From Dehalococcoidia bacterium (GTDB lineage Bacteria > Chloroflexota > Dehalococcoidia > Bin125), in NCBI GenBank assembly GCA_022825855.1, contig JAJDWB010000002.1, positions 1 to 64,000 on the forward strand: a stretch of 64,000 nucleotides of DNA, written 5' to 3'. The notes beneath the pieces were generated by a model that worked only from the letters and a program-made list of their open reading frames with translations, was not told the origin of the DNA and made no database searches. A program made the translations under genes and the position numbers. This document shows positions 17,843 to 32,181 of the stretch, one piece after another. The stretch's first letter is position 1. Each line of letters begins with the position of its first letter.

Positions 17843-18673
17843 TCAGTCGGAGGTGATCAGATACTCCCGCACGACGCCACGCTCCGTCGAGTTGGAGTTG
17901 ATGTTCCGGCGAGCCTGAACGTGAGTCAGGTCGAAACACTCGCCCTGGTAGATGGCCGCCACATTCGGGTGACCCGAGTTGGAAAGCACCACAGACGAAC
18001 CTCGTTGTACAAGGCGTGCGGCCGCCGCGGCAAGCCGCTCTTGATCTGCCATACCGAAGTCCTTGGCTGTGTATGAGGTGAAGTACGACGTTTCGCTGAC
18101 CGGCACGTAGGGCGGATCGAAGTAGACGAAGTCGCCTTCGGCAGCCGGCGCCGGTGCCGCGGCGAAGTCGGCCACCGAGAGTTCGACTCCCTTCAGCGCT
18201 TCCGAGACGGCGCGCAAATTGTCTTCGTCGCAGATGGTCGGGTTCTTGTAGCGACCGTGCGGGACATTGAATCGTCCCTTGCTGTTGACTCGATAGAGAC
18301 CGTTGTAGCAAGTCTTGTTGAGGAAGATCAGGTTGGCCGCGCCGCCCAGATCGCAGGTCAGCCGCTTCCCGCGGATCGTGTAGTAGTACTCGGCGCGATC
18401 GTCGGCCGCACGATACTTGCGCTGATGCACCTGAAGTGCCCGGACCAGGCCGTCGACGTTGTCTCGGACCTGTGTGTATGCGTTGATCAGTTCCCGGTTG
18501 CTGTCGGAGAGGACGGCCCGTGCGAAGCGGCCTTCTGCCTGCAGCGCGAAAAAGAGGGCGCCGCCGCCCAGGAACGGCTCGTAGTACGTGCCGATCCGCT
18601 CTGGCGCGGCATCGAGCAACTGCGGCAGCAACGCCGTCTTGCCTCCAGCCCACTTGAGAAACGGTTTGGCCAT
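17843..18673 (-). CDS. D12-class N6-adenine DNA methyltransferase (Dam-like)
   Basis: 276 residues. S-adenosylmethionine motif FLKWAGGKTALLPQL at the N-terminus, YYEPFLGGGALFFAL, the D12-family FLNKTCYNGLYRVN segment, and the catalytic DPPY in YFDPPYVPVS. This class usually methylates GATC. No restriction endonuclease gene is adjacent, so it looks like an orphan methylase used for regulation, repair or replication timing. Start ATG 18673 lies one base after the DUF402 stop (TGAGATG), so the two are co-translated; the longer upstream frame would overlap that gene. Confidence 0.93.
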   Translation of the reverse strand: MAKPFLKWAGGKTALLPQLLDAAPERIGTYYEPFLGGGALFFALQAEGRFARAVLSDSNRELINAYTQVRDNVDGLVRALQVHQRKYRAADDRAEYYYTIRGKRLTCDLGGAANLIFLNKTCYNGLYRVNSKGRFNVPHGRYKNPTICDEDNLRAVSEALKGVELSVADFAAAPAPAAEGDFVYFDPPYVPVSETSYFTSYTAKDFGMADQERLAAAAARLVQRGSSVVLSNSGHPNVAAIYQGECFDLTHVQARRNINSNSTERGVVREYLITSD

Positions 18674-18674
18674 C

Positions 18675-20692
<2,018 letters not shown>

Positions 20693-20743: not shown

Positions 20744-21277
20744 ATGTCGGAAACGGTCATCTCGATTCTCGTCTGGCTGCACGTGATCGGCGTCGCAATC
20801 TGGCTGGGCGGACAGATCGTCACCGCGGCCTGCGTGATTCCCGCTCTGCGTGCCGTCGGCGATCGCACGGTCTGGCTCGACGCGCTTGAGGGCTTCACCA
20901 GGCGCTTCGGACGCGTGGGCATCGCGGCGATGGTGGTCATCGTGATCACCGGCGGCGCGATGATCGATCCGCGTCTCGACCAGGTGGAGAACTTCGGCTC
21001 CGACCTCTACGCAGCGCGCTGGGGATACATCTTCGTGATCAAGATGGCCCTCTGGGCGGTGATGATCGGCCTGATCGGACTGCACCAGTTCGTCTTCGGA
21101 CCGCGGCAGCTCGAACTCGCCCGGCAGACCGCCGACGCGGATGAGGACACGCCCGAGTTGCGCCGCGTGCGCACGATCACCATCGCCCTCTCGATCTCCG
21201 GGCTGCTGATGACCCTGCTCGTCGCCGGCGCAGGTGCGTTCCTCGGCAATCACAACTTCTCGATGCTGCCGTCCTGA
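20744..21277 (+). CDS. CopD-like four-helix membrane protein
   Basis: 177 residues, four membrane spans: about 4-26 (ILVWLHVIGVAIWLGGQIVTA), 57-75 (VGIAAMVVIVITGGAMI), 95-115 and 148-168. The HVIGVAIWLGG motif in span 1 and the histidine pattern resemble CopD/DUF2269-type membrane proteins linked to copper or haem, but no cofactor can be proven. ATG 20744 follows GGAG by 8 bases; the GTG at 20741 is less likely. Its stop overlaps the next start by one base (TGATG), so it probably works with the thioredoxin-fold protein. Confidence 0.7.
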   Translation: MSETVISILVWLHVIGVAIWLGGQIVTAACVIPALRAVGDRTVWLDALEGFTRRFGRVGIAAMVVIVITGGAMIDPRLDQVENFGSDLYAARWGYIFVIKMALWAVMIGLIGLHQFVFGPRQLELARQTADADEDTPELRRVRTITIALSISGLLMTLLVAGAGAFLGNHNFSMLPS

Positions 21278-22233
21278 TGCCGAAGACTCGAATTCGCGGC
21301 AGCGTCACGACGCTCGCAGTCCTGCTTGTCGCCATGACCGCGCTCGCCGGCGCACAGTTTCCTACGCCTCAGGCCTTGGCCCAGGAGACGGCGCTGCGGG
21401 TCAACGTGGCGATCTGGATCTCTGACCAGGGAACCGCCGAACTCTGCGTCGACCTTCGCGATCGGGCGATGCGCGAGACGCGGCAGTGTCCCGAGCGCCG
21501 CCAACTCACCATCGCCCGAGCCCCCGAGGGCCGCTGGCTACGCTCGGGCGACCTGCAGATCGGCCCCGAGGTCTCGATCTATGCCCGGGCCAACCTCAGC
21601 GAGGGACGATTGCGCTACGGGCTGGGCGTGCGGACCGAAGGCGTTGCCCGAGGACTGCGCGCCGCCGACTGGAGCATCGACCTGGACACGACGGCCGTCA
21701 ACCAGTGGATCACCAGCTCGATGGTCACGGTGCGCCTGCCCGCCGCGCCACATCCCGAACTCTGGCCGCCGGAGAGCGGCATCGTTCCCGGCGCCCACCG
21801 ACTCGAGGAGGGCAAACCCGCCCCCGACTTCCTGCTGCCAGCGCTGGGCGAGGACGAAGACACGTTGGTCTCGCTCTCGAGCGCTCGCAGCGGCGGCGAG
21901 CGGCTCACCCTGATTGTCTTCTGGTCCTCGTGGGCGCCGTTCGTCGATGAGACGCTGAGCGTGCTCGCGGAACTCGCCGCGCGCGAGGACGACGTCTTCG
22001 TCATCGGCGTCAACGTCTACGAGGTCGAGCAGGACACGGCCGAGGACTTCATCGAGCGTCACGGAACGCTCCTGCTGCACCTGGTCGATGAGAGCGGCTC
22101 GGTCGCGCGGCACTACCGCGTGGACGGCCTGCCCGAGATTTTCGTGATCGACGCCGAGGGCGTCTACCGCGGTGTGATCCGCGGCGCCGCGCCGCTGACC
22201 CGGATTCTCGGCGTGATCACTGGCGTCGAGTGA
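21277..22233 (+). CDS. Exported TlpA/ResA-like thioredoxin-fold protein lacking both redox cysteines
   Basis: 318 residues. N-terminal signal peptide (TTLAVLLVAMTALAGAQ) predicts export. Residues 40-175 form a separate beta-rich domain; from about 180 the TlpA/ResA fold follows: APDFLLPAL, LTLIVFWSSWAPFVDE, VFVIGVNVYE, and the cis-proline region YRVDGLPEIFVIDAEG. The active-site WCxxC has become W219-A-P-F-V223, so thiol-disulfide chemistry at the normal site is impossible. It is translationally coupled to the CopD-like membrane protein and could be a binding or chaperone version of the fold. Confidence 0.78.
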   Translation: MPKTRIRGSVTTLAVLLVAMTALAGAQFPTPQALAQETALRVNVAIWISDQGTAELCVDLRDRAMRETRQCPERRQLTIARAPEGRWLRSGDLQIGPEVSIYARANLSEGRLRYGLGVRTEGVARGLRAADWSIDLDTTAVNQWITSSMVTVRLPAAPHPELWPPESGIVPGAHRLEEGKPAPDFLLPALGEDEDTLVSLSSARSGGERLTLIVFWSSWAPFVDETLSVLAELAAREDDVFVIGVNVYEVEQDTAEDFIERHGTLLLHLVDESGSVARHYRVDGLPEIFVIDAEGVYRGVIRGAAPLTRILGVITGVE

Positions 22234-22314
22234 GATTCCCGCGGCATGCAGGCAGATCGGTCGGATAGCCTGCGCACTGACACACACGCCGCGGCGCCGA
22301 CCAGGAGAAGCACC

Positions 22315-23202
22315 ATGACCGAGTACGAAGACATCCTCTACGAAACCAAGGGCCGGCTGGGGATCGTCACGCTCAATCGTCCGGAAAAGATGAACGCCCT
22401 CAGCCACCGGCTGCGAGCGGAGCTGTTCGACGCGCTCAAGGTCGCCGAGGCCGACGAGGGCGTTCACGTGGTCATCATCCGCGGTGCGGGCCGCACGTTC
22501 TCCGCCGGCTACGACATCACGCCGGTGCCCAATCTCTCCGAGTCGGATTACCTCGACTATCGCTCTGGCCTGCCCTCGGTCGGACCGATCCATCCCGGCC
22601 AGGGACAGTGGCCGCAGCACCTGCTCTCCGGCTACTGGCAGATCTGGGAGTTGACCAAGCCCGTGATCGCGCAGGTCCACGGCTACGCGCTGGCCGGCGG
22701 TTCCGAGCTGGCCTCGATGTGCGACTTGATGTTCGTCGCCGAGGACGCGATTATCGGCTACCCGCCGGTCCGCGCGATGACCACCGTCGACATCCTCTAC
22801 CACCCCTGGCACATGGGCATGCGCAAGGCGCGCGAGCTGCTCTACACCGGCGACTCGGTGACCGGGCTCGAAGCGGTCGAGCTGGGCTGGGCCAACAAGG
22901 CCTTCCCCGTCGACCAGCTCGCCGAGGAGACCGAGAAGATGGGCGAGCGGATCGCCAACATCGCCCCCGACATGATCCAGATGTCCAAGCGCGGACTCAA
23001 TCGCGCCTACGAAGTGATGGGCTTCCGCACCGCGCTGCAGGTGGGGGCCGACATTCAGGCGTTGTCTACCTACCGCCCCTCGGCCGGCGATTTCGGCCGC
23101 ATCGCCCGGGAGAAGGGCCTCAAGGCCGCCCTCGACTGGCGCGACGGGCCGTTCCAGGATTACGGCGCCGCCAAGTCGCGACCGTCCGCTCCCGGCAGCT
23201 AG
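22315..23202 (+). CDS. Enoyl-CoA hydratase/isomerase family protein (crotonase fold)
   Basis: 295 residues. Crotonase features: IVTLNRPEKMNALS, the oxyanion-hole segments GRTFSAGYDI and HGYALAGGSELASMCDLMF, and the C-terminal helical trimerisation region. The second catalytic glutamate usually in the GGG-E-L helix is present in the GGSELASM context. A roughly 30-residue insertion after SAGYDI (SESDYLDYRSGL) lengthens the active-site loop relative to canonical hydratases. The start is ATG 22315, 7 bases after AGGAG. A TAGCCT -10-like element lies at 22266-22271. The substrate is unknown. Confidence 0.9.
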   Translation: MTEYEDILYETKGRLGIVTLNRPEKMNALSHRLRAELFDALKVAEADEGVHVVIIRGAGRTFSAGYDITPVPNLSESDYLDYRSGLPSVGPIHPGQGQWPQHLLSGYWQIWELTKPVIAQVHGYALAGGSELASMCDLMFVAEDAIIGYPPVRAMTTVDILYHPWHMGMRKARELLYTGDSVTGLEAVELGWANKAFPVDQLAEETEKMGERIANIAPDMIQMSKRGLNRAYEVMGFRTALQVGADIQALSTYRPSAGDFGRIAREKGLKAALDWRDGPFQDYGAAKSRPSAPGS

Positions 23203-23327: not shown

Positions 23328-23948
23328 ATGCCCAGTCGCACCGGGATTCCTCAGTCGTTCGGCATCATCATGGTGTTCGCCCTGCTGACCGCGGGCATCG
23401 TGGCGCTGGTCGGGTTCGCCATTCACAAGGGCGCCGACCGCAATGTCGTCGAGGCCAAGGCGATCTCCGAGTTGGCCGGCGTCGAAGGCTGGGAGACCGG
23501 ACTCTTCTGCATCGAGGAGGGCAAAGAAGACCACCCCTCGCTCTCGCTGACCGAACGACCGCCGGAGACTTGCGCCGAGGCCGAGCCGCTGCCGATTGAA
23601 AACCTGAGCGACGACGAGTGGGGCGGCGAAGACGCGGTCCGCGCGGGCGCCAACGCGCTGCGCGGCGCCGAGCTCTATGTTGCCAACGGCTGCCAGGTCT
23701 GCCACGGCGAAGTCGGCGAGGGTCTGGTCGGCCCCACGATTGCGCAAACCGGATTGGACATCCAGGGCGTGATCGCGCAGTACCGCCAGCCGCGCGGCAT
23801 CATGCAGGAGTTCCCGGCCGAAGATGTCTCGGTTGAGGACATCGCCGATATCTGGACCTGGCTGCAATCCTTGCCCGCCGTCGATCCGCTCGTCGACCCA
23901 AACAACGACGCGCTGGGTCACGAGAGCTACGGGCAGTGGGCGCAGTAA
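23328..23948 (+). CDS. Membrane-anchored c-type cytochrome
   Basis: 206 residues. An N-terminal span (about 11-33, IIMVFALLTAGIVALVGFAI) anchors a domain outside the membrane. The haem-binding motif CQVCH is at 122-126, and the axial methionine candidate is in the RGIMQEFP segment. The fold after residue 105 matches class I cytochrome c (GAELYVANGCQVCHG, then IADIWTWLQSL). The 60-residue stretch between anchor and haem domain has two extra Cys (about 61 and 82). No oxidase or reductase partner is in the window; it may shuttle electrons for the nearby oxidative pathways. Confidence 0.88.
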   Translation: MPSRTGIPQSFGIIMVFALLTAGIVALVGFAIHKGADRNVVEAKAISELAGVEGWETGLFCIEEGKEDHPSLSLTERPPETCAEAEPLPIENLSDDEWGGEDAVRAGANALRGAELYVANGCQVCHGEVGEGLVGPTIAQTGLDIQGVIAQYRQPRGIMQEFPAEDVSVEDIADIWTWLQSLPAVDPLVDPNNDALGHESYGQWAQ

Positions 23949-24001
23949 CCCGCTCCTGATCCTGACGACCCCTATCCTCGGTGGCGGACGGGAGGTCTGC
24001 C

Positions 24002-24793
24002 ATGGGAAGTCATGCGACGCCGACGGCGGCGTACTGGTCATTCTTCGAGCGCTTCAACGCGAAAGATCCGGACGGCTGGGCGGGCGCGATGTCGTATCCG
24101 CACGTCCGCGTCTCGGCCGCGCCGCCTCGCGCACAGCGCGCACAACCCGGCGCGCGGACGGCGTCCGGCGTCTATCCGACTCCCCGCGACTACGCCGCGA
24201 TGGCGGCCGACGCCGGCTGGCAGCGGTTCGAGGTCACCGGCTGGGTGCGGACGCAGGGCGTCACGCCGCGCGTGGTCCACACCTCCGAATCCAAGGTGCA
24301 TCTGGCCGGTGGCTGGACCCGCTACCGCGCCGACGACTCGGAGATTCTGACCAACCGCGTGCTCTACGTGATGACGCGGACCGACGAAGGCTGGGGCATC
24401 CAGGCGCGCTTCGGCGTCGACGGGTTCCGCAGCGGCGCGGACCGCAGCACGGAGTCCGAAGCCGCGCTCGACGCGCTGGCGCGGCTTATGCAGACGCTCG
24501 AACCGGGCGATGTCGAGCCCTGGCTTGACTGCTTCCACTATCCGCTCACCCTGATCGGCGGGCCGGGAGAGGTCAACACGATGGACGATGCCGCCGCGAT
24601 GCGCGCCGCCTACGGGGATTGGGCCGGACAGGCGCTGCCGATCCGCTACAGCGCCGAGGTGCTCGCCGCCGGGGACAGCGGTGTCACGCTGGCGCAGTCG
24701 ATCACGCGCGGCGACGAGTCATTCCAGCAGGCGTTCCTGGTCGCGCAGCGAGACGGCGAGTGGAAGATCCTCGCCGTTTCGGCGGTGAGATAA
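24002..24793 (+). CDS. Duplicated NTF2/SnoaL-like protein, tandem paralogue 1
   Basis: 263 residues made of two NTF2-like (SnoaL/DUF4440-type) repeats: AAYWSFFERFNAKDPDGWAG with SYPHVRVSA in the first half, and LMQTLEPGDVEPWLDCFHYP in the second. The first half also carries KVHLAGGWTRYRADDSEI and NRVLYVMTRTDEGWGIQARFG. This fold binds small hydrophobic molecules and includes isomerases, hydrolases and binding proteins; no catalytic set is certain. GGGAGG is 6 bases before ATG 24002, with a TATCCT -10-like element at 23973-23978. First of three adjacent paralogues. Confidence 0.75.
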   Translation: MGSHATPTAAYWSFFERFNAKDPDGWAGAMSYPHVRVSAAPPRAQRAQPGARTASGVYPTPRDYAAMAADAGWQRFEVTGWVRTQGVTPRVVHTSESKVHLAGGWTRYRADDSEILTNRVLYVMTRTDEGWGIQARFGVDGFRSGADRSTESEAALDALARLMQTLEPGDVEPWLDCFHYPLTLIGGPGEVNTMDDAAAMRAAYGDWAGQALPIRYSAEVLAAGDSGVTLAQSITRGDESFQQAFLVAQRDGEWKILAVSAVR

Positions 24794-24821
24794 CCGCCGC
24801 CGGCCGAGGAAGGGCACACTC

Positions 24822-25580
24822 ATGGGTGCGTATCGGTCAGCCGAGGCGGCCTACTGGGCCTTCTTCACCACCTACAACGATCGCTCCCCCTCAGGCCGCG
24901 CCGGGGCGATGAGCTATCCGCACGTCCGCGTCGCCGCCGGTCGCGACGAGCCCATCGTGACCAATACTGCCGCCGAGTACGAGCAGCTCGACAACTGGTC
25001 GGCCGTCGAGCAACAGGGCTGGGCCTGGACGCAGCCGATCACCCCGCGCGTAATGCATCGCTCGCCCGACAAGGTGCACTTCGCCGGGGGCTGGACCCGC
25101 TTCCGCGCCGACGGCTCGGAGATCAGCCGTAACCGTCTGCTCTACATCGCCACGGAGATGGACGACGGCTGGGGCACTCAGGGCGCGTTTGGCGTCGAAG
25201 GCTGCCTGACCGGCGAGGCTGCTCGCGAGTCCAACCAAGCCGCGCTGGCGCTCGTCGAGCGGATGATGACCACGCTGGCAGCCGGCGAGGTCGATGCCTG
25301 GCTGGATTGCTTCCACTACCCAAACGTCATCGTCTTCGCGCCGGGACAGATCGAGTACTACGAAACGCGTGAAGAAGTGGATCAGGCGTATCGACCGTTT
25401 GTCAGCACGCCGACGCCGATCTCGCACGACACACGGATCACGTCCACGGGTCCGAGGGCTGCGCTGGTTGAACAATCGATCACGCAGGGCGGCGTCTACT
25501 TCGAGCAGTGCTTCCTGGTTGTCGAGCGCGAAGGCGTCTGGGCTGCATCGGCCGTCTCGGCTGTACGGCCCTACGGTTAG
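24822..25580 (+). CDS. Duplicated NTF2/SnoaL-like protein, tandem paralogue 2
   Basis: 252 residues, same two-repeat architecture: AAYWAFFTTYNDRSPSGRAG, SYPHVRVAA, KVHFAGGWTRFRADGSEISRN, and in the second half MTTLAAGEVDAWLDCFHYP. It begins 28 bases after paralogue 1 ends, with a purine-rich GAGGAAGGG upstream. The second half is the more divergent one among the three copies. Most likely part of one operon with its neighbours. Confidence 0.75.
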   Translation: MGAYRSAEAAYWAFFTTYNDRSPSGRAGAMSYPHVRVAAGRDEPIVTNTAAEYEQLDNWSAVEQQGWAWTQPITPRVMHRSPDKVHFAGGWTRFRADGSEISRNRLLYIATEMDDGWGTQGAFGVEGCLTGEAARESNQAALALVERMMTTLAAGEVDAWLDCFHYPNVIVFAPGQIEYYETREEVDQAYRPFVSTPTPISHDTRITSTGPRAALVEQSITQGGVYFEQCFLVVEREGVWAASAVSAVRPYG

Positions 25581-25590
25581 GAAGCGGCCT

Positions 25591-26364
25591 GTGGGGCGCT
25601 ACGAGTCTCCCGAGGCGGCCTACTTCGCCTTTCTCGACACGTTCAATGCACGCGACGCCGCCGGCTGGGCGGGCGTCAACTCCTGGCCGCACGCTCGAGT
25701 CTCCGCGGCGGCGGCCGACAGTTCGGTCCACTGGCGGCCGCCGACTCGCGTGTTCGCCGACGCCGAGGAGTATCTCGCCGAACCGCTCTGGGCCGAGCTC
25801 GAAGCGACCGGCTGGGCGCGAAGCGCCTCGCTGCCGCCGACCGTCGTACAGGCGTCGGACGTCAAAGTGCACCTCGCCGGCGGCTGGACCCGCTTCGATG
25901 CCAGTGACGCGGCGATGGCCGCCAACCGCGTCGTCTATGTGATGACCAGGACCGACGAGGGCTGGGGCATCCAGGCCCAGCTCAAGACAGACAGCTTCGC
26001 CGACGGCGTCGACTTCTCCGCGCAGCAGCTAGCAGCCGTTGACGCGGTCGAGTCGGCGCTCGGGCTGCTCGACGCCGGGGAGATCGACGCCTACTGTGAG
26101 GCACTGATCTACCCGTTCACGCTCGTCGGTCCGCCGGGTGTGATCATCGTGATCGAGTCCGCCGCCGAGATGGCCGCGGCGATGCGCAGCGTGGGCGACG
26201 ACCGGCTCGACGCCGCGCCCGGCTCCTCGCAGATCGTCAACTGTGGAGCCAGCGGCGCAAACGTCAGCATCCGGGTCGAACGGGACGGCGCAGCGCAGAA
26301 CGCGCTGGCTCTGGTCGGCTTGCGCGAGAACCAGTGGCGGATGCTGGCGATGTCGGGGATCTGA
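25591..26364 (+). CDS. Duplicated NTF2/SnoaL-like protein, tandem paralogue 3
   Basis: 257 residues, again two repeats: AAYFAFLDTFNARDAAGWAG, SWPHARVSA, KVHLAGGWTRFDASDAAMAAN and NRVVYVMTRTDEGWGIQAQL, then LGLLDAGEIDAYCEALIYP. The start is GTG 25591: AGGAAG (25579-25584) is 6 bases upstream and overlaps the stop of paralogue 2, and GTG begins the aligned GRYESPEAAYF. In the second half the conserved Asp-Cys-Phe-His of the other copies is lost (EALIYP). Ends tail-to-tail with the ABC permease gene. Confidence 0.75.
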   Translation: MGRYESPEAAYFAFLDTFNARDAAGWAGVNSWPHARVSAAAADSSVHWRPPTRVFADAEEYLAEPLWAELEATGWARSASLPPTVVQASDVKVHLAGGWTRFDASDAAMAANRVVYVMTRTDEGWGIQAQLKTDSFADGVDFSAQQLAAVDAVESALGLLDAGEIDAYCEALIYPFTLVGPPGVIIVIESAAEMAAAMRSVGDDRLDAAPGSSQIVNCGASGANVSIRVERDGAAQNALALVGLRENQWRMLAMSGI

Positions 26365-26376
26365 CGACGGGCAGGG

Positions 26377-27318
26377 TCAATCGCCCTCGAGCGCGCCGCG
26401 CAGGCGTGGATCGAGCACGTCGCGCAGGCCGTCGCCGATGATGTTCAGGCTCCAGACCAACAGCGCGATGCAGGCCCCGGGGAAGACCCACAACCACCAG
26501 CCGCTGCCGGTGATGATCACCTGGCGGCCCTCCGAGACCATCCCGCCCCAGGTCGGTTCGGGCGGGCGGATGCCCAGACCGAGGAAAGACAACCCGGCCT
26601 CGGCGATGATCGCGAAACCCGCGCCCAGCGAGACCTGCACGATCACCGGCTGGAAGCTGTTGGGCAGCACGTAGCGCATCATGATCCGCAGGTTGCTGGC
26701 GCCGATCGTCTGACCGGCCAGGACATAATCCTGTTCGCGCACAGAGAGCGCCATTGCGCGCGCAATCCTCGCCACCCAGGGAATATTGGCGATCCCGACC
26801 GCGACGATGATATTGATAATGTCCCGGCCCAGCACCGAGACCAGCGCCAGCGCGAGGATCAGGCCGGGGAAGGCGAGCACGGCATCCATCAAGCGCATCA
26901 ACGCTTCGTCGACCACGCCGCGGGCATAGCCGGCGGCGATGCCGATCGGCAGACCGAAGATCGCGCCGAACAGTGAAGCGCCGAAGCCCACGGCCAGCGC
27001 CGCCCTGGTCGCGTGGAGCACGCGGGAGAACGTGTCGCGGCCAATCTTGTCGGTGCCGAAGGGATGATCGGCGTTGGGCGACTGCCAGGAGACGTAGAGA
27101 CCGTCCTCGTCGGTCGCCTGTTCCTCGAAGCCGGGCAGCGGGAAGACGTCAACGAAGATGGCGATGATCCCGAAGACGACCAGGATGAACAGCGCCGGAC
27201 GCACCAGTCGGACGCGCAGGAAGCGGCGCATGAAAATGCGCAACGGCTCGAGCCGGCTCGCCTCGTCCGGAACCGGGTAACCCCCCGCGGTGGTTTCCGC
27301 TGCCGCCTGCTCAGCCAT
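26377..27318 (-). CDS. Peptide/nickel-type ABC transporter permease (DppC family)
   Basis: 313 residues. An N-terminal cytoplasmic segment, a first membrane span at about 41-58 (PALFILVVFGIIAIFVDVF), an external loop with SPNADHPFGTDKIGRD typical of DppC/OppC, then five more spans. The ATPase-coupling (EAA) loop is EQDYVLAGQTIGASNLRIMMRYVLPN, and AEAGLSFLGLGIRPPEPTWG is the characteristic DppC motif. It overlaps the DppB-type gene by 8 bases. No ATP-binding subunits are in the window, so they are encoded elsewhere or shared. Confidence 0.93.
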   Translation of the reverse strand: MAEQAAAETTAGGYPVPDEASRLEPLRIFMRRFLRVRLVRPALFILVVFGIIAIFVDVFPLPGFEEQATDEDGLYVSWQSPNADHPFGTDKIGRDTFSRVLHATRAALAVGFGASLFGAIFGLPIGIAAGYARGVVDEALMRLMDAVLAFPGLILALALVSVLGRDIINIIVAVGIANIPWVARIARAMALSVREQDYVLAGQTIGASNLRIMMRYVLPNSFQPVIVQVSLGAGFAIIAEAGLSFLGLGIRPPEPTWGGMVSEGRQVIITGSGWWLWVFPGACIALLVWSLNIIGDGLRDVLDPRLRGALEGD

Positions 27319-28264
27319 AGCGGATCCTCGGATCCAGGATGCCGTAGGAGATGTCGGTCAGCAGGTTGGCAATCACGATCGCGATCGCGATCACCAGGAT
27401 CATCGCCTGAACGATCAGCAGGTCACGCTGCAGCGCCGCCTGCACCAGCCAGCGACCCATGCCGGGGATGTTGAAGATCTGCTCCACGATCACGGCTCCG
27501 GCGAAGACGCGGGCCAGGAGCAGACCGACGATCGTGACCACCGGCAACAGTCCGTTGCGCAGGGCGTGCAGGGCAATCACGCGCCGCTCGCGCAGACCTT
27601 TTGCCCGCGCGGTGCGCACATAATCCTGGCGCATCACTTCCAGCATCGAGGAACGCGTCTGCCTCGCCACGATCGCCGAGAGCACCCAGCCCACCACCAG
27701 CGTGGGCATGATCAACGATCTGACCGAGGCCGCCGGGTCGTCCCAGATGCGAGCAAAGCCGGCCGCCGGCAAGACGTCCCAGGTCACGACGAAGAGCAGG
27801 ATCAGGATCAAACCGGTCAGGTAGTCGGGAATCGCGACGCCACCGACTGACAACATCGTCACCAGACGGTCGGCAAGCGAATTCGGCTTAATCGCCGAAA
27901 GCACGCCGGCCGGGATCCCGATCAGCATCCCCACAATGATCGTCGCAAAGCCCACATGCAGCGTGTTTTGCAAGCGCTGAATGAGCTCCGAGCCGATCGA
28001 GCGGTTGGTCAGCACCGAGCTGCCGAAGTCGCCCGAACTGACGATGTCGCCGATCCACTTGCCGAATTGCTCCGGCACCGACTTGTTCAGTCCGAGCTGT
28101 TCCTCGACCTGGGCGCGGCGTTCCGGCGATATCGCCTCGCCCTCGCCCGAGAGCGCCGCTACTGGGTCCCCCGGCAGGATGCGGAAGATCGCGAACGACG
28201 CGATCGCGACCAGGATGACCACCACGATCGATTGCAGAACCCGGACCGTAATGTACGTCCACAT
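27311..28264 (-). CDS. Peptide/nickel-type ABC transporter permease (DppB family)
   Basis: 317 residues, six membrane spans, first at about 9-29. Family features: FRILPGDPVAALSG in the first external loop, the EAA coupling loop near RQDYVRTARAKGLRERRVIALHALRN, and the C-terminal VEQIFNIPGMGRWLVQAALQRD. Partner of the overlapping DppC-type subunit. It is separated from the upstream substrate-binding protein by a 142-base gap containing a stable hairpin, which may give the binding protein a higher expression level. Confidence 0.93.
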   Translation of the reverse strand: MWTYITVRVLQSIVVVILVAIASFAIFRILPGDPVAALSGEGEAISPERRAQVEEQLGLNKSVPEQFGKWIGDIVSSGDFGSSVLTNRSIGSELIQRLQNTLHVGFATIIVGMLIGIPAGVLSAIKPNSLADRLVTMLSVGGVAIPDYLTGLILILLFVVTWDVLPAAGFARIWDDPAASVRSLIMPTLVVGWVLSAIVARQTRSSMLEVMRQDYVRTARAKGLRERRVIALHALRNGLLPVVTIVGLLLARVFAGAVIVEQIFNIPGMGRWLVQAALQRDLLIVQAMILVIAIAIVIANLLTDISYGILDPRIRYG

Positions 28265-28340
28265 GGCGGCGTGTTAGATCGCTCCCTGCATCATCTGCGT
28301 GGATCCCGCTCTGCGCGGGAGAGGAAGGCGCTGGGTCCAA

Positions 28341-28381
28341 CCGCTCTCCCCTCCCCTCACAGCGAGGCGAAGGGAGAGCGG
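28341..28381. repeat. Palindromic element with 10-bp perfect arms
   Basis: CCGCTCTCCC (28341-28350) and GGGAGAGCGG (28372-28381) flank 21 bases. It lies between the substrate-binding protein gene and dppB-like gene in the same operon, the usual place for a 3'-stabilising or attenuating hairpin that lets the binding protein outnumber the permease. Belongs by composition to the dispersed palindrome group. Confidence 0.8.
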
Positions 28382-28406
28382 TCTGAGAGTGACGGCGTGC
28401 GGCCGG

Positions 28407-30233
28407 CTAGACCTCGTCGCTGTACAGCCAGCGGCTCTGCCACTTGCCTTCGCCGTTGAAGAGCGTCTCCTCGGCGTTCTTGATCGGGTTGCGCACGCCC
28501 GTGAAGTTGACCCCGTAGAGCATCGTGTAGAAGTGACCTTCGCCGACGATGATGTCGTTCACACGGCCGTAGATCTCACGCCGCTCTTCGACATCGAAGG
28601 TCGAGCGACCGTCGGAGACGAGCTGGTCGAGATCGGGGTGAATCGGGCTCTCCTGATCCTGCGGTCCGGTCGGGTTGTAGACGCCGCTCTTGGTGTAGGC
28701 CAGCGACGCGATCCAGTCGGGCTCCGGGTAGCGCGACCACCCGGTCAGCGTCATGTGGTACTCGCTGTTCTCGAAGAAGGCCGGGATGAACTCGACCAAC
28801 TCCAGCGGTTCGAAGTTGACGTCGATGCCCAGGACTTCCTTGATCTGGTTGGCGTAGACCTGGCTGGCGTCGATCTTGACCTGGTTGACGTAGGTCGTCA
28901 GCGAAATGCCGCCCTCGGCATTGATCGCGTCCACGTCGACGCCCGACTGCGCCAGCAGCTCTTGTGCCCGCTCGCGCCGGTCGGCGATCGCCGGGTAGGC
29001 GACCTGCGGGTTGCTGGGCACTTCGCTGTAGGCCAGGGTGCCGTTCGGCCACTGGCCGCCCAGCGCCTGGATCATCAGGTCGTTGTGCACCGCGTTGTTG
29101 ACCGCTTCGGGGTGAACGGCGTGCATGATCGCCAGCCGCAGGCTCATGTTGTCCAGCGGCGGCTTCTTCGAGTTGAAGACCAGGATCTCCGAGACGAACG
29201 CGCCCTCCATCGTCACCAGGCGCCAGTCGGGATGCTCCTCGACCTGGTCGTTGAACTGCGGCTCGGGGATGAACATCGTGTCCAGGTCCCCTGCGAGTCC
29301 GGTCGCGATCAGGGTCGAGTTTTCGGTGATGATGTTGTACTTCATCTCCTCGAAGTAGGGCAGCTGGCTGCCCGTCTGCGAGCCGGGCTCAGGCCCGCGC
29401 ATCCAGTGATTGGGGTTGCGTTTGCCCAGCACGTGCGACTGGTCGACCCACTCGACGAACGAGTACGGGCCCGTACCGACCGGATTGAGGCCGTACTCGT
29501 CGCCCAGTTCGTCCGCCGTCGGCACGTGGATCATGGCCCCGGCCCGGTCGCCGAGCAGGTGCATGACCGCCGCCGACGGTTCCGTGAGCAGGTACGTCGC
29601 CGTCCGCTCGTCTGGCGTCTCGACCGTGTGCACGACCTCGAAGTTCGCCTTCGGTGTCGAGGCCGGGTGCCCGGTCACGCGCTCCAGGTTGAGCCGCACG
29701 TCCTCCGACGAGAACGCGTCGCCGTTGTGGAAGGTCACACCATCGCGCAGCGAGAAGATGATCGTCGTGTTGTCGGGGAACTCCCAGGCCTCGGCCAGCG
29801 ATACATCGGTGCGCTGCACGTTCTGCGTGTCGTGCATCACCAGGTAGTCGTAGAACGGCTGGAAATAGTAGGCGTCGGTACCAGATGTACCGGTGTGCGG
29901 GTCGATGCCGGTCGTGTTCAAGTGCAAGCCGGCGTTCCAGACCGAGGCGATCGCCGGACCGGCCGACTGCGCCTGCGCGACGGCCGCCTGCTGCTGTTGC
30001 TGCTGAGCGTCCGCCTGTTGCTCCTGCTGCTCCGCCTGCTGCTCGGCCGCCTGTTGCTGCTGTTCGGCCTGTTGCTGAACCTGCGCGGCGCCCTGATCGT
30101 CGTCATCATCGTCGCCGCAGCCGACCAATGCCAGACCGGCCGCGCCCACGCCGGCGCGCGCCGAGGCTCGCAACAGCGAACGCCTCGACATCCTGCTCCG
30201 CTTCATCCGGGTCCAATAGTTACGGGTCGCCAT
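28407..30233 (-). CDS. ABC transporter substrate-binding lipoprotein (SBP_bac_5 family)
   Basis: 608 residues. The N-terminus has a twin-arginine-like motif SRRSLLRAS (16-24) and a lipobox LVGC with Cys39, so it is probably exported folded and lipid-anchored. A six-Asp run and a Gln-rich linker (about 47-90) tether the domain. The SBP_bac_5 core follows: LAEAWEFPDNTTIIFSLRDGVTFHNGDAFSSEDV, NPVGTGPYSFVEW, and FNSKKPPLDNMSLRLAIMHAV. Ligand is probably a peptide or similar small molecule, but family members vary widely. AAAGGA is 7 bases before the ATG. Confidence 0.92.
   Translation of the reverse strand: MATRNYWTRMKRSRMSRRSLLRASARAGVGAAGLALVGCGDDDDDDQGAAQVQQQAEQQQQAAEQQAEQQEQQADAQQQQQQAAVAQAQSAGPAIASVWNAGLHLNTTGIDPHTGTSGTDAYYFQPFYDYLVMHDTQNVQRTDVSLAEAWEFPDNTTIIFSLRDGVTFHNGDAFSSEDVRLNLERVTGHPASTPKANFEVVHTVETPDERTATYLLTEPSAAVMHLLGDRAGAMIHVPTADELGDEYGLNPVGTGPYSFVEWVDQSHVLGKRNPNHWMRGPEPGSQTGSQLPYFEEMKYNIITENSTLIATGLAGDLDTMFIPEPQFNDQVEEHPDWRLVTMEGAFVSEILVFNSKKPPLDNMSLRLAIMHAVHPEAVNNAVHNDLMIQALGGQWPNGTLAYSEVPSNPQVAYPAIADRRERAQELLAQSGVDVDAINAEGGISLTTYVNQVKIDASQVYANQIKEVLGIDVNFEPLELVEFIPAFFENSEYHMTLTGWSRYPEPDWIASLAYTKSGVYNPTGPQDQESPIHPDLDQLVSDGRSTFDVEERREIYGRVNDIIVGEGHFYTMLYGVNFTGVRNPIKNAEETLFNGEGKWQSRWLYSDEV
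29964..30095 (-). repeat. Gln-codon-rich low-complexity tract inside the binding-protein gene
   Basis: Codes for residues about 47-90 of the binding protein, mostly CAG/CAA glutamine codons mixed with Ala and Glu. The DNA is a near-continuous CAG/CTG-type trinucleotide array and could change length by slippage, altering linker length without a frameshift. Confidence 0.75.
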
Positions 30234-30381: not shown

Positions 30382-32181
30382 TTAGTCGGCGGCCGAGGAG
30401 AATGCGATCGGACCGTTCGCGATCGACGACAGGCTGGCGACCAGCTCCACCCGCCCCGCGTTCGATTCGAACTCGGCCGTCGTCACCTGGCTCTCGATCC
30501 GCCCGTCGTCGCCGATGATCGTGATGATCGTCGAGAAGTGCTCGATCGAGTCGATCGTCACGCCCGCGGCCAGCAGCTCGGCCGTTTCCGCCAGCAGCAG
30601 ATCGGCAATCGCTTCGAAGTGGTCGTCGCCCGGCAGGCGCGGACCGCTCTCGATCACCAGCTCATAGACGGCGGGGCCGCCGCCTTCGATCGTCCGCGTC
30701 ACCCAGGAGAGGTCCAGCAGATCGGCGTACTCCTGCAGGTTGACCCGGTCGGGATTGGCCAGGAACTCATCCACCGTCAGGCTGGAAAAACCGAGCAGGG
30801 CCGGACTGGACGGTTCCCAGACCGGCGCACCGGCCGCATCGGCCGAGCTCGTCCAGATCCCGTCGCGACTCCAGAGCAGGCGGAAGACGCTGGAGCCGTC
30901 GATCACGACCTCGGTCTCGAACGCACCCTGCGACCGCGAGCTGCGCAGCACCGTGCTGGCCAGCCGCGACTCGCCGTCGATCACGGCCTGCGCCACGAAC
31001 TGCAGGTGCAGCTCGTCGACAACGGCCAGCCAGCTCTCCGCCCGGCCGATCAACTGTTCGGCGCTCAGCAACTCGCCCGAACCCGCCGCTCCCTCGCTGC
31101 CGGCGCTGCTGCCCGAGTCGGCCGCGGCGTCGCCATTGGTCGGCAGGCCCAGCTCCGTGGCGTCGACCAACGGCTCCGGCGTCGGAAACTCGACCGGCTC
31201 GTTCCAGCTTCGCAGCGTCGAGACCGAGTTGACGTAGGACGCGACCTCTTCCTCGTCGTCGCCGTCGGAGGCGGTCAGGCCCAGCGGATCCGTGATCGTC
31301 GCGTTCGTCTCGACCAACAGCGGCGCCCCGCTCGAGCGGCTGATCGCCATGCGCATGTGCAGGGTCTCGATCCCGGAGTCGGCCAGCTCGATGCCCTCCT
31401 CGCGCAGCATCTGCGCGACCGAGGCGCTCACCTGCTCCACGTCGATCTGACAGTCGACCAGCCAGACGTCCTCGCCGTTGTGCTGGCTGTAGGTCACGAC
31501 CCCGCCGACGGCTTCGACGCAGCCGATCGTCTGCCCGAATCCGGACGGGTCGGCAATCGCGGTCGCATCGCTGCCCAGCAGCGCGGTGATGCTCTCCAGC
31601 GCTTCATCGAAGTTCTCGCTCAAGTCGACCCAGCCGCCGAGACCGGGCATCGACAGGAACCCGCCCGAGTCGTCGATCAGCACCTGGAGCAACACCGGCG
31701 TCTCCGGCTGCTCCCCGTCCGGCTCCGCCAGCGCCTGCACCGCCCCGAACAGTCCCGACGCGTCCAGCGTCGTCAGCACGGTGAACGGCTCAGCCCGGTA
31801 GGTGCCCACCGCGTCAACCTGCGCCGCCAGACCGAGCAGGTCGAACTCGATCGCCACGTCCACCACCATCGTCTGCAGATCAGCCGTCCAGGCGTCCAGG
31901 GCGGCAATCGCCTCGGCCAGCAGCGGGTCGTCGGATTGCGGCTGCGCGTCGGCTGTCGCCTGTGCGTCATCCTGCTCGCCTTCGGCCGACTCTGCCGCCG
32001 ACGGCTGCGTCTGCTCCGACTGGCGCGCCACCGCGTCTCGCTCTGCCTGCCCCGCCTCCGCTGGCTCGGACTGGCTCTGCTGCGGTTCCGCCTGCGTGGC
32101 CTCCTCGTCGCCGTTGCAGCCAAGCAACACACCCGCCAACGCAATCAGCCCCGCGGCCGCCAACGCCAAGTACACGCGCAT
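30382..32181 (-). CDS. Large lipoprotein with two related beta-rich domains
   Basis: 599 residues. Signal peptide with lipobox LLGC (Cys22) and N-terminal disordered Glu/Gln/Ser linker (about 25-85). Two domains of similar layout follow: about 86-340 (AIAALDAWTADLQTMVVDVAIEFDL onward) and 375-599 (LIGRAESWLAVVDELHLQFVAQAVIDG onward). Both begin with a helix then long antiparallel strands, a pattern seen in LppX/LprG-like and DUF6612-like lipoproteins that carry lipids. I cannot confirm homology. Strong GGGAGG upstream of ATG and a TACAGT element about 20 bases before it. Confidence 0.6.
   Translation of the reverse strand: MRVYLALAAAGLIALAGVLLGCNGDEEATQAEPQQSQSEPAEAGQAERDAVARQSEQTQPSAAESAEGEQDDAQATADAQPQSDDPLLAEAIAALDAWTADLQTMVVDVAIEFDLLGLAAQVDAVGTYRAEPFTVLTTLDASGLFGAVQALAEPDGEQPETPVLLQVLIDDSGGFLSMPGLGGWVDLSENFDEALESITALLGSDATAIADPSGFGQTIGCVEAVGGVVTYSQHNGEDVWLVDCQIDVEQVSASVAQMLREEGIELADSGIETLHMRMAISRSSGAPLLVETNATITDPLGLTASDGDDEEEVASYVNSVSTLRSWNEPVEFPTPEPLVDATELGLPTNGDAAADSGSSAGSEGAAGSGELLSAEQLIGRAESWLAVVDELHLQFVAQAVIDGESRLASTVLRSSRSQGAFETEVVIDGSSVFRLLWSRDGIWTSSADAAGAPVWEPSSPALLGFSSLTVDEFLANPDRVNLQEYADLLDLSWVTRTIEGGGPAVYELVIESGPRLPGDDHFEAIADLLLAETAELLAAGVTIDSIEHFSTIITIIGDDGRIESQVTTAEFESNAGRVELVASLSSIANGPIAFSSAAD

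Follow-up and report, generated by a model that had tools for sequence, protein, structure and literature searches.

The 64,000-nucleotide stretch of DNA analysed here (the window) harbors a tandem array of three genes, copies A, B and C, each encoding a protein with two consecutive NTF2-like domains. In our overall reading, which we consider about evenly poised between right and wrong, the array represents a single two-domain family in which the N-terminal half (N-half) holds a pocket, the C-terminal half (C-half) serves as its partner, and the array itself recombines. The fold and the family of the N-half (DUF6841) were already known; Pfam, NCBIfam and the literature searched yielded no instance of the two-domain architecture, of three such genes in tandem or of the putative exchange of C-halves. 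Through the trio, a so far unnamed Chloroflexota family of two-domain NTF2-like proteins is defined, and the probable source of its second domain is indicated. Its host is a marine Chloroflexota bacterium, and the combination of a near-frozen N-half with a fast-changing, apparently swapped C-half suggests that the family, so far unstudied, consists of enzymes acting on small molecules or of proteins binding them. Moreover, the three types, the apparently swapped C-halves and the single-domain relatives form a natural series for testing how a duplicated domain becomes a partner. SAR202 and related marine lineages have been proposed to degrade resistant organic matter and contain many expanded, unassigned enzyme families (PMC6946804); this tie comes from the literature on relatives and not from data on the trio genes, and no mention of SnoaL or NTF2 was found in that study of SAR202 paralogues.

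The array and its flanking genes are composed as follows:

22246–23202, plus strand: enoyl-CoA hydratase/isomerase family gene (PF00378, E 5e-40), upstream neighbor
23328–23948, plus strand: membrane-anchored cytochrome c (PF13442, E 2e-9), directly upstream of copy A
24002–24793, plus strand: copy A, open reading frame with ATG start, 263 residues, two-domain NTF2-like protein
24002–24430, plus strand: N-half of copy A (residues 1–143), DUF6841-type NTF2 domain by profile score (PF20795, 29.4 bits against a cut-off of 27)
24434–24790, plus strand: C-half of copy A (residues 145–263), putative diverged DUF6841-type NTF2 domain (Z 14.9 to 3b7c)
24822–25580, plus strand: copy B, open reading frame with ATG start, 252 residues, two-domain NTF2-like protein
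25591–26364, plus strand: copy C, open reading frame with GTG start, 257 residues, two-domain NTF2-like protein, C-half of a distinct type without DCFH
26377–30233, minus strand: dipeptide/oligopeptide-type ABC transporter genes (DppC-like, DppB-like, solute-binding protein), convergent and downstream; Pfam matches PF00528 for 26377–27318 and PF00496 for 28407–30233

The host genome comprises 2.8 Mb on 22 contigs, with the window located on contig C5. The original prediction of three adjacent, co-directional genes for proteins of 252–263 residues was confirmed by the open reading frames listed above, which are spaced by 28 (A–B) and 10 bases (B–C) and are each preceded by a purine-rich, Shine-Dalgarno-like stretch. 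An alternative GTG start of copy A lies at position 23981, and the ATG at 24002 is the start kept in 13 orthologues. A promoter and terminator scan found nothing, and neither a signal peptide nor a membrane segment was evident from direct reading of the N-terminus. A chance or frame artefact was ruled out and A, B and C are regarded as real genes because their third-codon-position GC is 0.82–0.88, orthologues of copy A within the genus share 53–89% identity, and dN/dS between orthologues (Nei-Gojobori) is 0.05–0.33 in every half tested. The postulated tandem triplication was borne out as well: A shares 45% identity with B and 40% with C (within-genome search), and within the genome the three match meaningfully only one another, the next match appearing at E 1.7.

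Regarding the fold, an AlphaFold2 model of copy A (input of 37 family sequences; pLDDT 92.9, pTM 0.90) features two consecutive alpha-beta domains, residues 1–143 and 145–263. In this model, the C-half matches 3b7c with Z 14.9 (111 residues, rmsd 1.8 Å) and the N-half matches 3gwr with Z 13.5. Modelled alone, the N-half (pLDDT 90.4) reached Z 14.1 to 3gwr (122 residues, rmsd 2.5) as well as Z 13.9 to SgcJ, 13.0 to scytalone dehydratase (1idp) and 12.3 to LinA (3a76), values that reflect fold similarity only. Two NTF2-like folds per protein, as proposed earlier, hold for copy A at the level of the predicted models, in which both halves fit NTF2 folds (Z 13–15), and are likely for B and C from the alignment of their halves to A. 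A sequence search of the PDB gave no convincing match; the best hit (E 0.046) was a triosephosphate isomerase, and the NTF2-type CaMKII hub appeared only at E 0.81.

Profile searches place the N-half in or near DUF6841 (PF20795), with 29.4 bits for A, 21.4 for B and 18.6 for C against a gathering cut-off of 27, so that the N-half of copy A alone passes a Pfam cut-off and those of B and C match weakly. The PF20795 model describes one domain of 129 positions, whereas all 42 members analysed here are two-domain proteins, whose second domain lies beyond the reach of the model; in the Pfam scan, the C-halves of the three window copies gave no PF20795 match. SnoaL_2, SnoaL_3 and DUF4440 share the fold and match C-halves weakly; the C-halves of the window showed sub-threshold matches to SnoaL_2, SnoaL_3 and Lumazine_bd_2 (none for copy C), and no window protein exceeded the curated gathering cut-offs of these families, the best score outside DUF6841 being 22.6 bits for SnoaL_2 against a cut-off of 27 (C-half of copy B). 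In agreement with the earlier failure to recognize a named two-repeat family, no model in Pfam or NCBIfam fits, which rules out membership in such a family, and the only family reached above its cut-off, DUF6841, is one to which no function is attached. Our literature search on DUF6841 found no paper naming it.

A class-wide profile search further revealed separate single-domain genes of about 125–150 residues in Dehalococcoidia that match the N-half and are themselves weak PF20795 matches; PF20795 was too insensitive as a phylum-wide probe, with matches in 6 of 400 genomes. Against the profile of these single-domain DUF6841-like proteins, the N-half reached E 5e-28 and the C-half E 6e-15 to 4e-17 over the full length (hhalign), whereas the control, a comparison of the C-half with SnoaL_2/SnoaL_3-type profiles of the same and related genomes, gave E 9e-7 to 0.2; the SnoaL-type proteins encoded in these genomes lie at a much greater distance from the halves than do the DUF6841-like ones. 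An origin of the C-half from a different NTF2/SnoaL family by gene fusion, in which case the halves would not be duplicates, appears highly improbable in light of these values, even though in Pfam scans SnoaL_2 is the family closest to the C-halves (10 of 29, best E 2e-5) and DUF6841 is absent among the families listed, and a direct comparison of C-half and N-half reached only E 7e-5. Because the C-half matches the single-domain DUF6841-like profile so much better than the control NTF2 profiles (E 6e-15 versus 9e-7 or worse), the most plausible reading is that of a second DUF6841-type domain that has diverged strongly, and the two-domain protein probably arose by internal duplication, which supports the common origin of the halves claimed in the original prediction. 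The profile comparisons are single pairwise tests of small alignments (13–29 rows), and the direct comparison of N-half and C-half profiles (E 6e-4 to 1e-5) is by itself too weak for claiming a duplication. As a separate observation, the single-domain DUF6841-like genes (L079–L094) feature an RSS motif near their end in 13 of 13 cases (WGVQFRSSF type), which was lost from the two-domain N-halves (QARFG) and perhaps marks an ancestral active-site strand.

The two halves also differ strongly in their conservation. The motifs GWAG, PH-x-RV, KVH-x-AGGWTR and DEGWGIQ are all present in the first halves of the three copies (MAFFT alignment), with the variants GRAG and DDGWGTQ in copy B. Earlier, these motifs had been described as shared by the two halves of each protein; the alignment showed them to be shared between copies, with no recurrence in the C-halves. 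Across the 42 two-domain proteins, 15 N-half positions are invariant (P33, H34, R36, W73, G80, W81, G103, G104, W105, T106, R107, N118, R119, Y122 and W131), and H100 is found in 97% of them, with a Leu in the protein of the distant genome G430; full invariance in the C-half is restricted to P181 and W254. When single-domain relatives are added (41 sequences), P33, R36, W81, H100, R107 and W131 stay invariant. Identity within types amounts to 73–78% for the N-half versus 56–64% for the C-half.

Within the C-halves, WLDCFHYP is common to A and B, and copy C has YCEALIYP instead. The reported loss of Asp-Cys-Phe-His from the second half of copy C is real, the CEALIYP type occurring in 13 of 14 C orthologues, and DCFH is also missing in four A orthologues. 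The divergence of function deduced from this loss was sustained in part: the C-half of copy C is the fastest evolving half, with the highest dN/dS (about 0.3 in several pairs), but it is conserved as a type of its own, and a similar change together with probable C-half swapping also affected copy A in other species. All halves are under purifying selection, and since dN/dS is about 0.3, the second half of copy C is a relaxed but maintained type and not a decaying one.

The best-supported origin is a tandem duplication, within one gene, of an ancestral single NTF2-like domain of the DUF6841 type; the two-domain gene was triplicated in this genus and occurs patchily elsewhere in Chloroflexota. 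Each protein may be a soluble intramolecular pseudo-dimer, in which a polar N-half pocket would bind a small organic metabolite. The predicted pocket draws on three strands, the first contributing H34 and R36, the next long one H100, and the one after that N118 and Y122, and it also includes Q134; as judged from strand alternation in the model, these residues could face one cavity. The C-half, in which the fixed polar pocket would have been lost, could act as a partner shaping or closing the N-half site, or as an oligomer interface. Furthermore, the ligands of A, B and C are probably related but not identical, or else the copies assemble into mixed oligomers, because residues fixed in a type-specific manner near the presumed pocket differ between them (e.g., positions 30, 32, 101, 109, 136 and 138). 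That the trio proteins are enzymes acting on small molecules, or binders of them, with the site in the N-half and the C-half as partner domain, has about equal chances of being correct or not, catalysis being somewhat likelier than pure binding. The chemistry of the N-half would probably be of the acid-base kind, carried out by His, Arg and Tyr as in a dehydratase, isomerase or hydrolase. This is likelier than the Asp-based chemistry featured by many NTF2 enzymes, because no Asp-based site is evident and D140, where the last N-half strand ends, is the one position that is acidic throughout.

NTF2-like domains comprise both enzymes and non-catalytic binders, and several bacterial NTF2-like DUFs have been proposed to act as non-catalytic ligand binders (PMC3924330). 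As a tentative alternative, the trio could likewise consist of carriers, each copy holding a hydrophobic metabolite (e.g., an acyl or aromatic intermediate) and handing it to enzymes or to neighboring transport or electron-transfer proteins, with the C-half as oligomerisation domain. Consistent with such a role, there is no invariant acidic residue apart from D140, and the structural matches are spread widely, with designed binders and the CaMKII hub among them, and show no bias toward one enzyme; the density of invariant His, Arg, Asn and Tyr residues in the N-half, however, exceeds the needs of a greasy binding cup.

The best Foldseek matches of the whole model are Lsd19 (3rga, 4rzm) and MonBI-MonBII, 3rga being the nearest two-domain chain (E 2e-10). 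Lsd19, the lasalocid epoxide hydrolase, comprises two catalytic domains in one chain (PMC8827043), and the two NTF2 halves of the trio proteins could by analogy both be catalytic and act in succession. Such a two-site enzyme is very unlikely: the C-halves keep almost no polar residue across the 42-protein family, both-domain coverage by Lsd19 is poor (TM 0.43, rmsd 7.8), and no polyether, polyketide or epoxidase genes were found among the annotated neighbors, which do not include every neighbor. Lsd19 and MonB, both actinobacterial natural-product enzymes, further differ by their low identity (13%), the poor superposition of the whole chains, their polyketide context, and an Asp-based site that is not clear here; at the sequence level, the candidates for their Tyr acid and Asp base would be the invariant Y122 and the always-acidic D140. 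The proposal of a single N-half site with an inactive C-half partner finds a model in MonBI, which is inactive alone and boosts MonBII (PMC8827043).

Iota-carbonic anhydrases (SgcJ/EcaC-like, COG4337) share the NTF2 fold and are among the structural matches (7c5y, 3h51). They feature one to several repeated domains per chain and an (H)HHSS motif (PMC8425729), which was found in none of the 42 two-domain proteins and none of 13 single-domain relatives; in the control, HHxS or HHSS was present in 9 of 10 SnoaL_3-like proteins of these genomes. The trio proteins thus lack the motif that defines iota-carbonic anhydrases, in which it is located in the C-terminal strand. Apart from the trio, SnoaL_3-type proteins, namely L137 (G000:C17:117787–118158, outside the window), L131–L136, L138 and L139, contain HHHGS, HHHAS or HHSS near their end. 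Motifs of the L137 type are close to (H)HHSS, and the organism of the window may carry such a carbonic anhydrase.

Conservation of the trio was assessed in related genomes, the close relatives being metagenome-assembled. Among 14 other genomes of the genus, 13 carry the array; A and C occur in every one of these 13, and B in 7, being missing from G001, G004, G005, G010, G012 and G014. Placement in the N-half tree and synteny suggest at least two losses of B. The remaining genome, G002, has no copy, and its matching site was not located, which leaves loss or an assembly gap. Most genomes keep the order enoyl-CoA hydratase, cytochrome c, A, (B), C and convergent ABC transporter, and copy C of G007 and G008 is located past a gene that matches the window ORF 17843–18715. 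Outside the genus, single two-domain genes were found in G017 of the same family, in four genomes of another Dehalococcoidia family (G358, G254, G246 and G278), and in G430 of another class of the phylum, whose protein is 51% identical to A and which is the sole carrier among 41 genomes searched there. This patchy occurrence in Chloroflexota suggests horizontal transfer. Among plasmids, one distant single-domain-like match was obtained on a Pseudomonas veronii plasmid (29% over residues 7–145, E 8e-3).

The matching site of G017 contains the hydratase and cytochrome c genes and an inverted transporter block, with no NTF2 gene between them; its own two-domain gene sits elsewhere. Formation of the array at this site, or its arrival there, therefore took place within the genus, and triplication of the two-domain gene in this genus is shown by trees and synteny. 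The inverted orientation of the G017 transporter block (L150, 1580–5455) relative to cytochrome c, as compared with 26377–30233 of the window, also places the array at the edge of a rearranged transporter block. Additionally, two tandem, same-strand Abhydrolase_3 alpha/beta hydrolases follow the two-domain gene of G017 (L051, 7798–9928).

Trees of the separate halves (IQ-TREE) are in conflict with each other. In the N-half tree, each of the three types is a single group (support 92/89 for A, 100/100 for B and 100/100 for C), whereas in the C-half tree the A copies of G006, G007, G008 and G013 fall outside A, and the C copy of G009 leaves C and joins the A/B side (99/97). Constraining the A copies to one group in the C-half tree lowers the log-likelihood by 21.2 units (AU p 0.0024), and the same constraint on the C copies lowers it by 15.1 units (AU p 0.0285). 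The groups for these tests were named from gene position and N-halves after the conflict had already been seen by eye; for this reason, and because of long branches, the C-group conflict is a moderate result. The trees suggest that C-halves were exchanged between paralogues, and, combined with losses of B that left a clean junction (29 bases remain between A and C in G004), they point to recombination within the array, which would both swap C-halves and delete B. A rather unlikely extension would be a modular system in which A, B and C form hetero-oligomers of a near-frozen catalytic half and interchangeable non-catalytic halves setting specificity, the array serving as a cassette for reshuffling between species.

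Annotated neighbors of the array comprise acyl-CoA enzymes, cytochrome c and ABC transporter genes, with other unrelated genes in relatives, and no neighbor gene is common to all lineages with a two-domain protein. The enoyl-CoA hydratase is found near the two-domain gene in the genus of the window, in G017 and in the G254/G246 group, and none was seen in G358 and G430; it was rejected as functional partner, since each genome contains 22–44 such genes, with an occurrence within 3 kb expected in about 5–10%, and the link is weak. Cytochrome c lies upstream of the array in 12 of 12 sister genomes whose contig shows this region, and was dismissed as partner because it is found there only in this genus.

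Further genes around the array deserve mention in their own right. In the solute-binding protein at 28407–30233, the signal sequence is followed by a long stretch rich in glutamine and alanine (QQQAEQQQQAAEQQ...), which forms an unusual linker. This protein is adjoined by a 599-residue protein (30382–32181) with no Pfam match and about 50% identity between species, the neighboring genes being mostly far more alike, which makes it a candidate fast-evolving exported protein or lipoprotein. Upstream, at 21277–22233, a thioredoxin-fold protein (AhpC/TSA) shows 55–68% identity between species compared with 85–98% for the adjoining genes, and part of it evolves fast.
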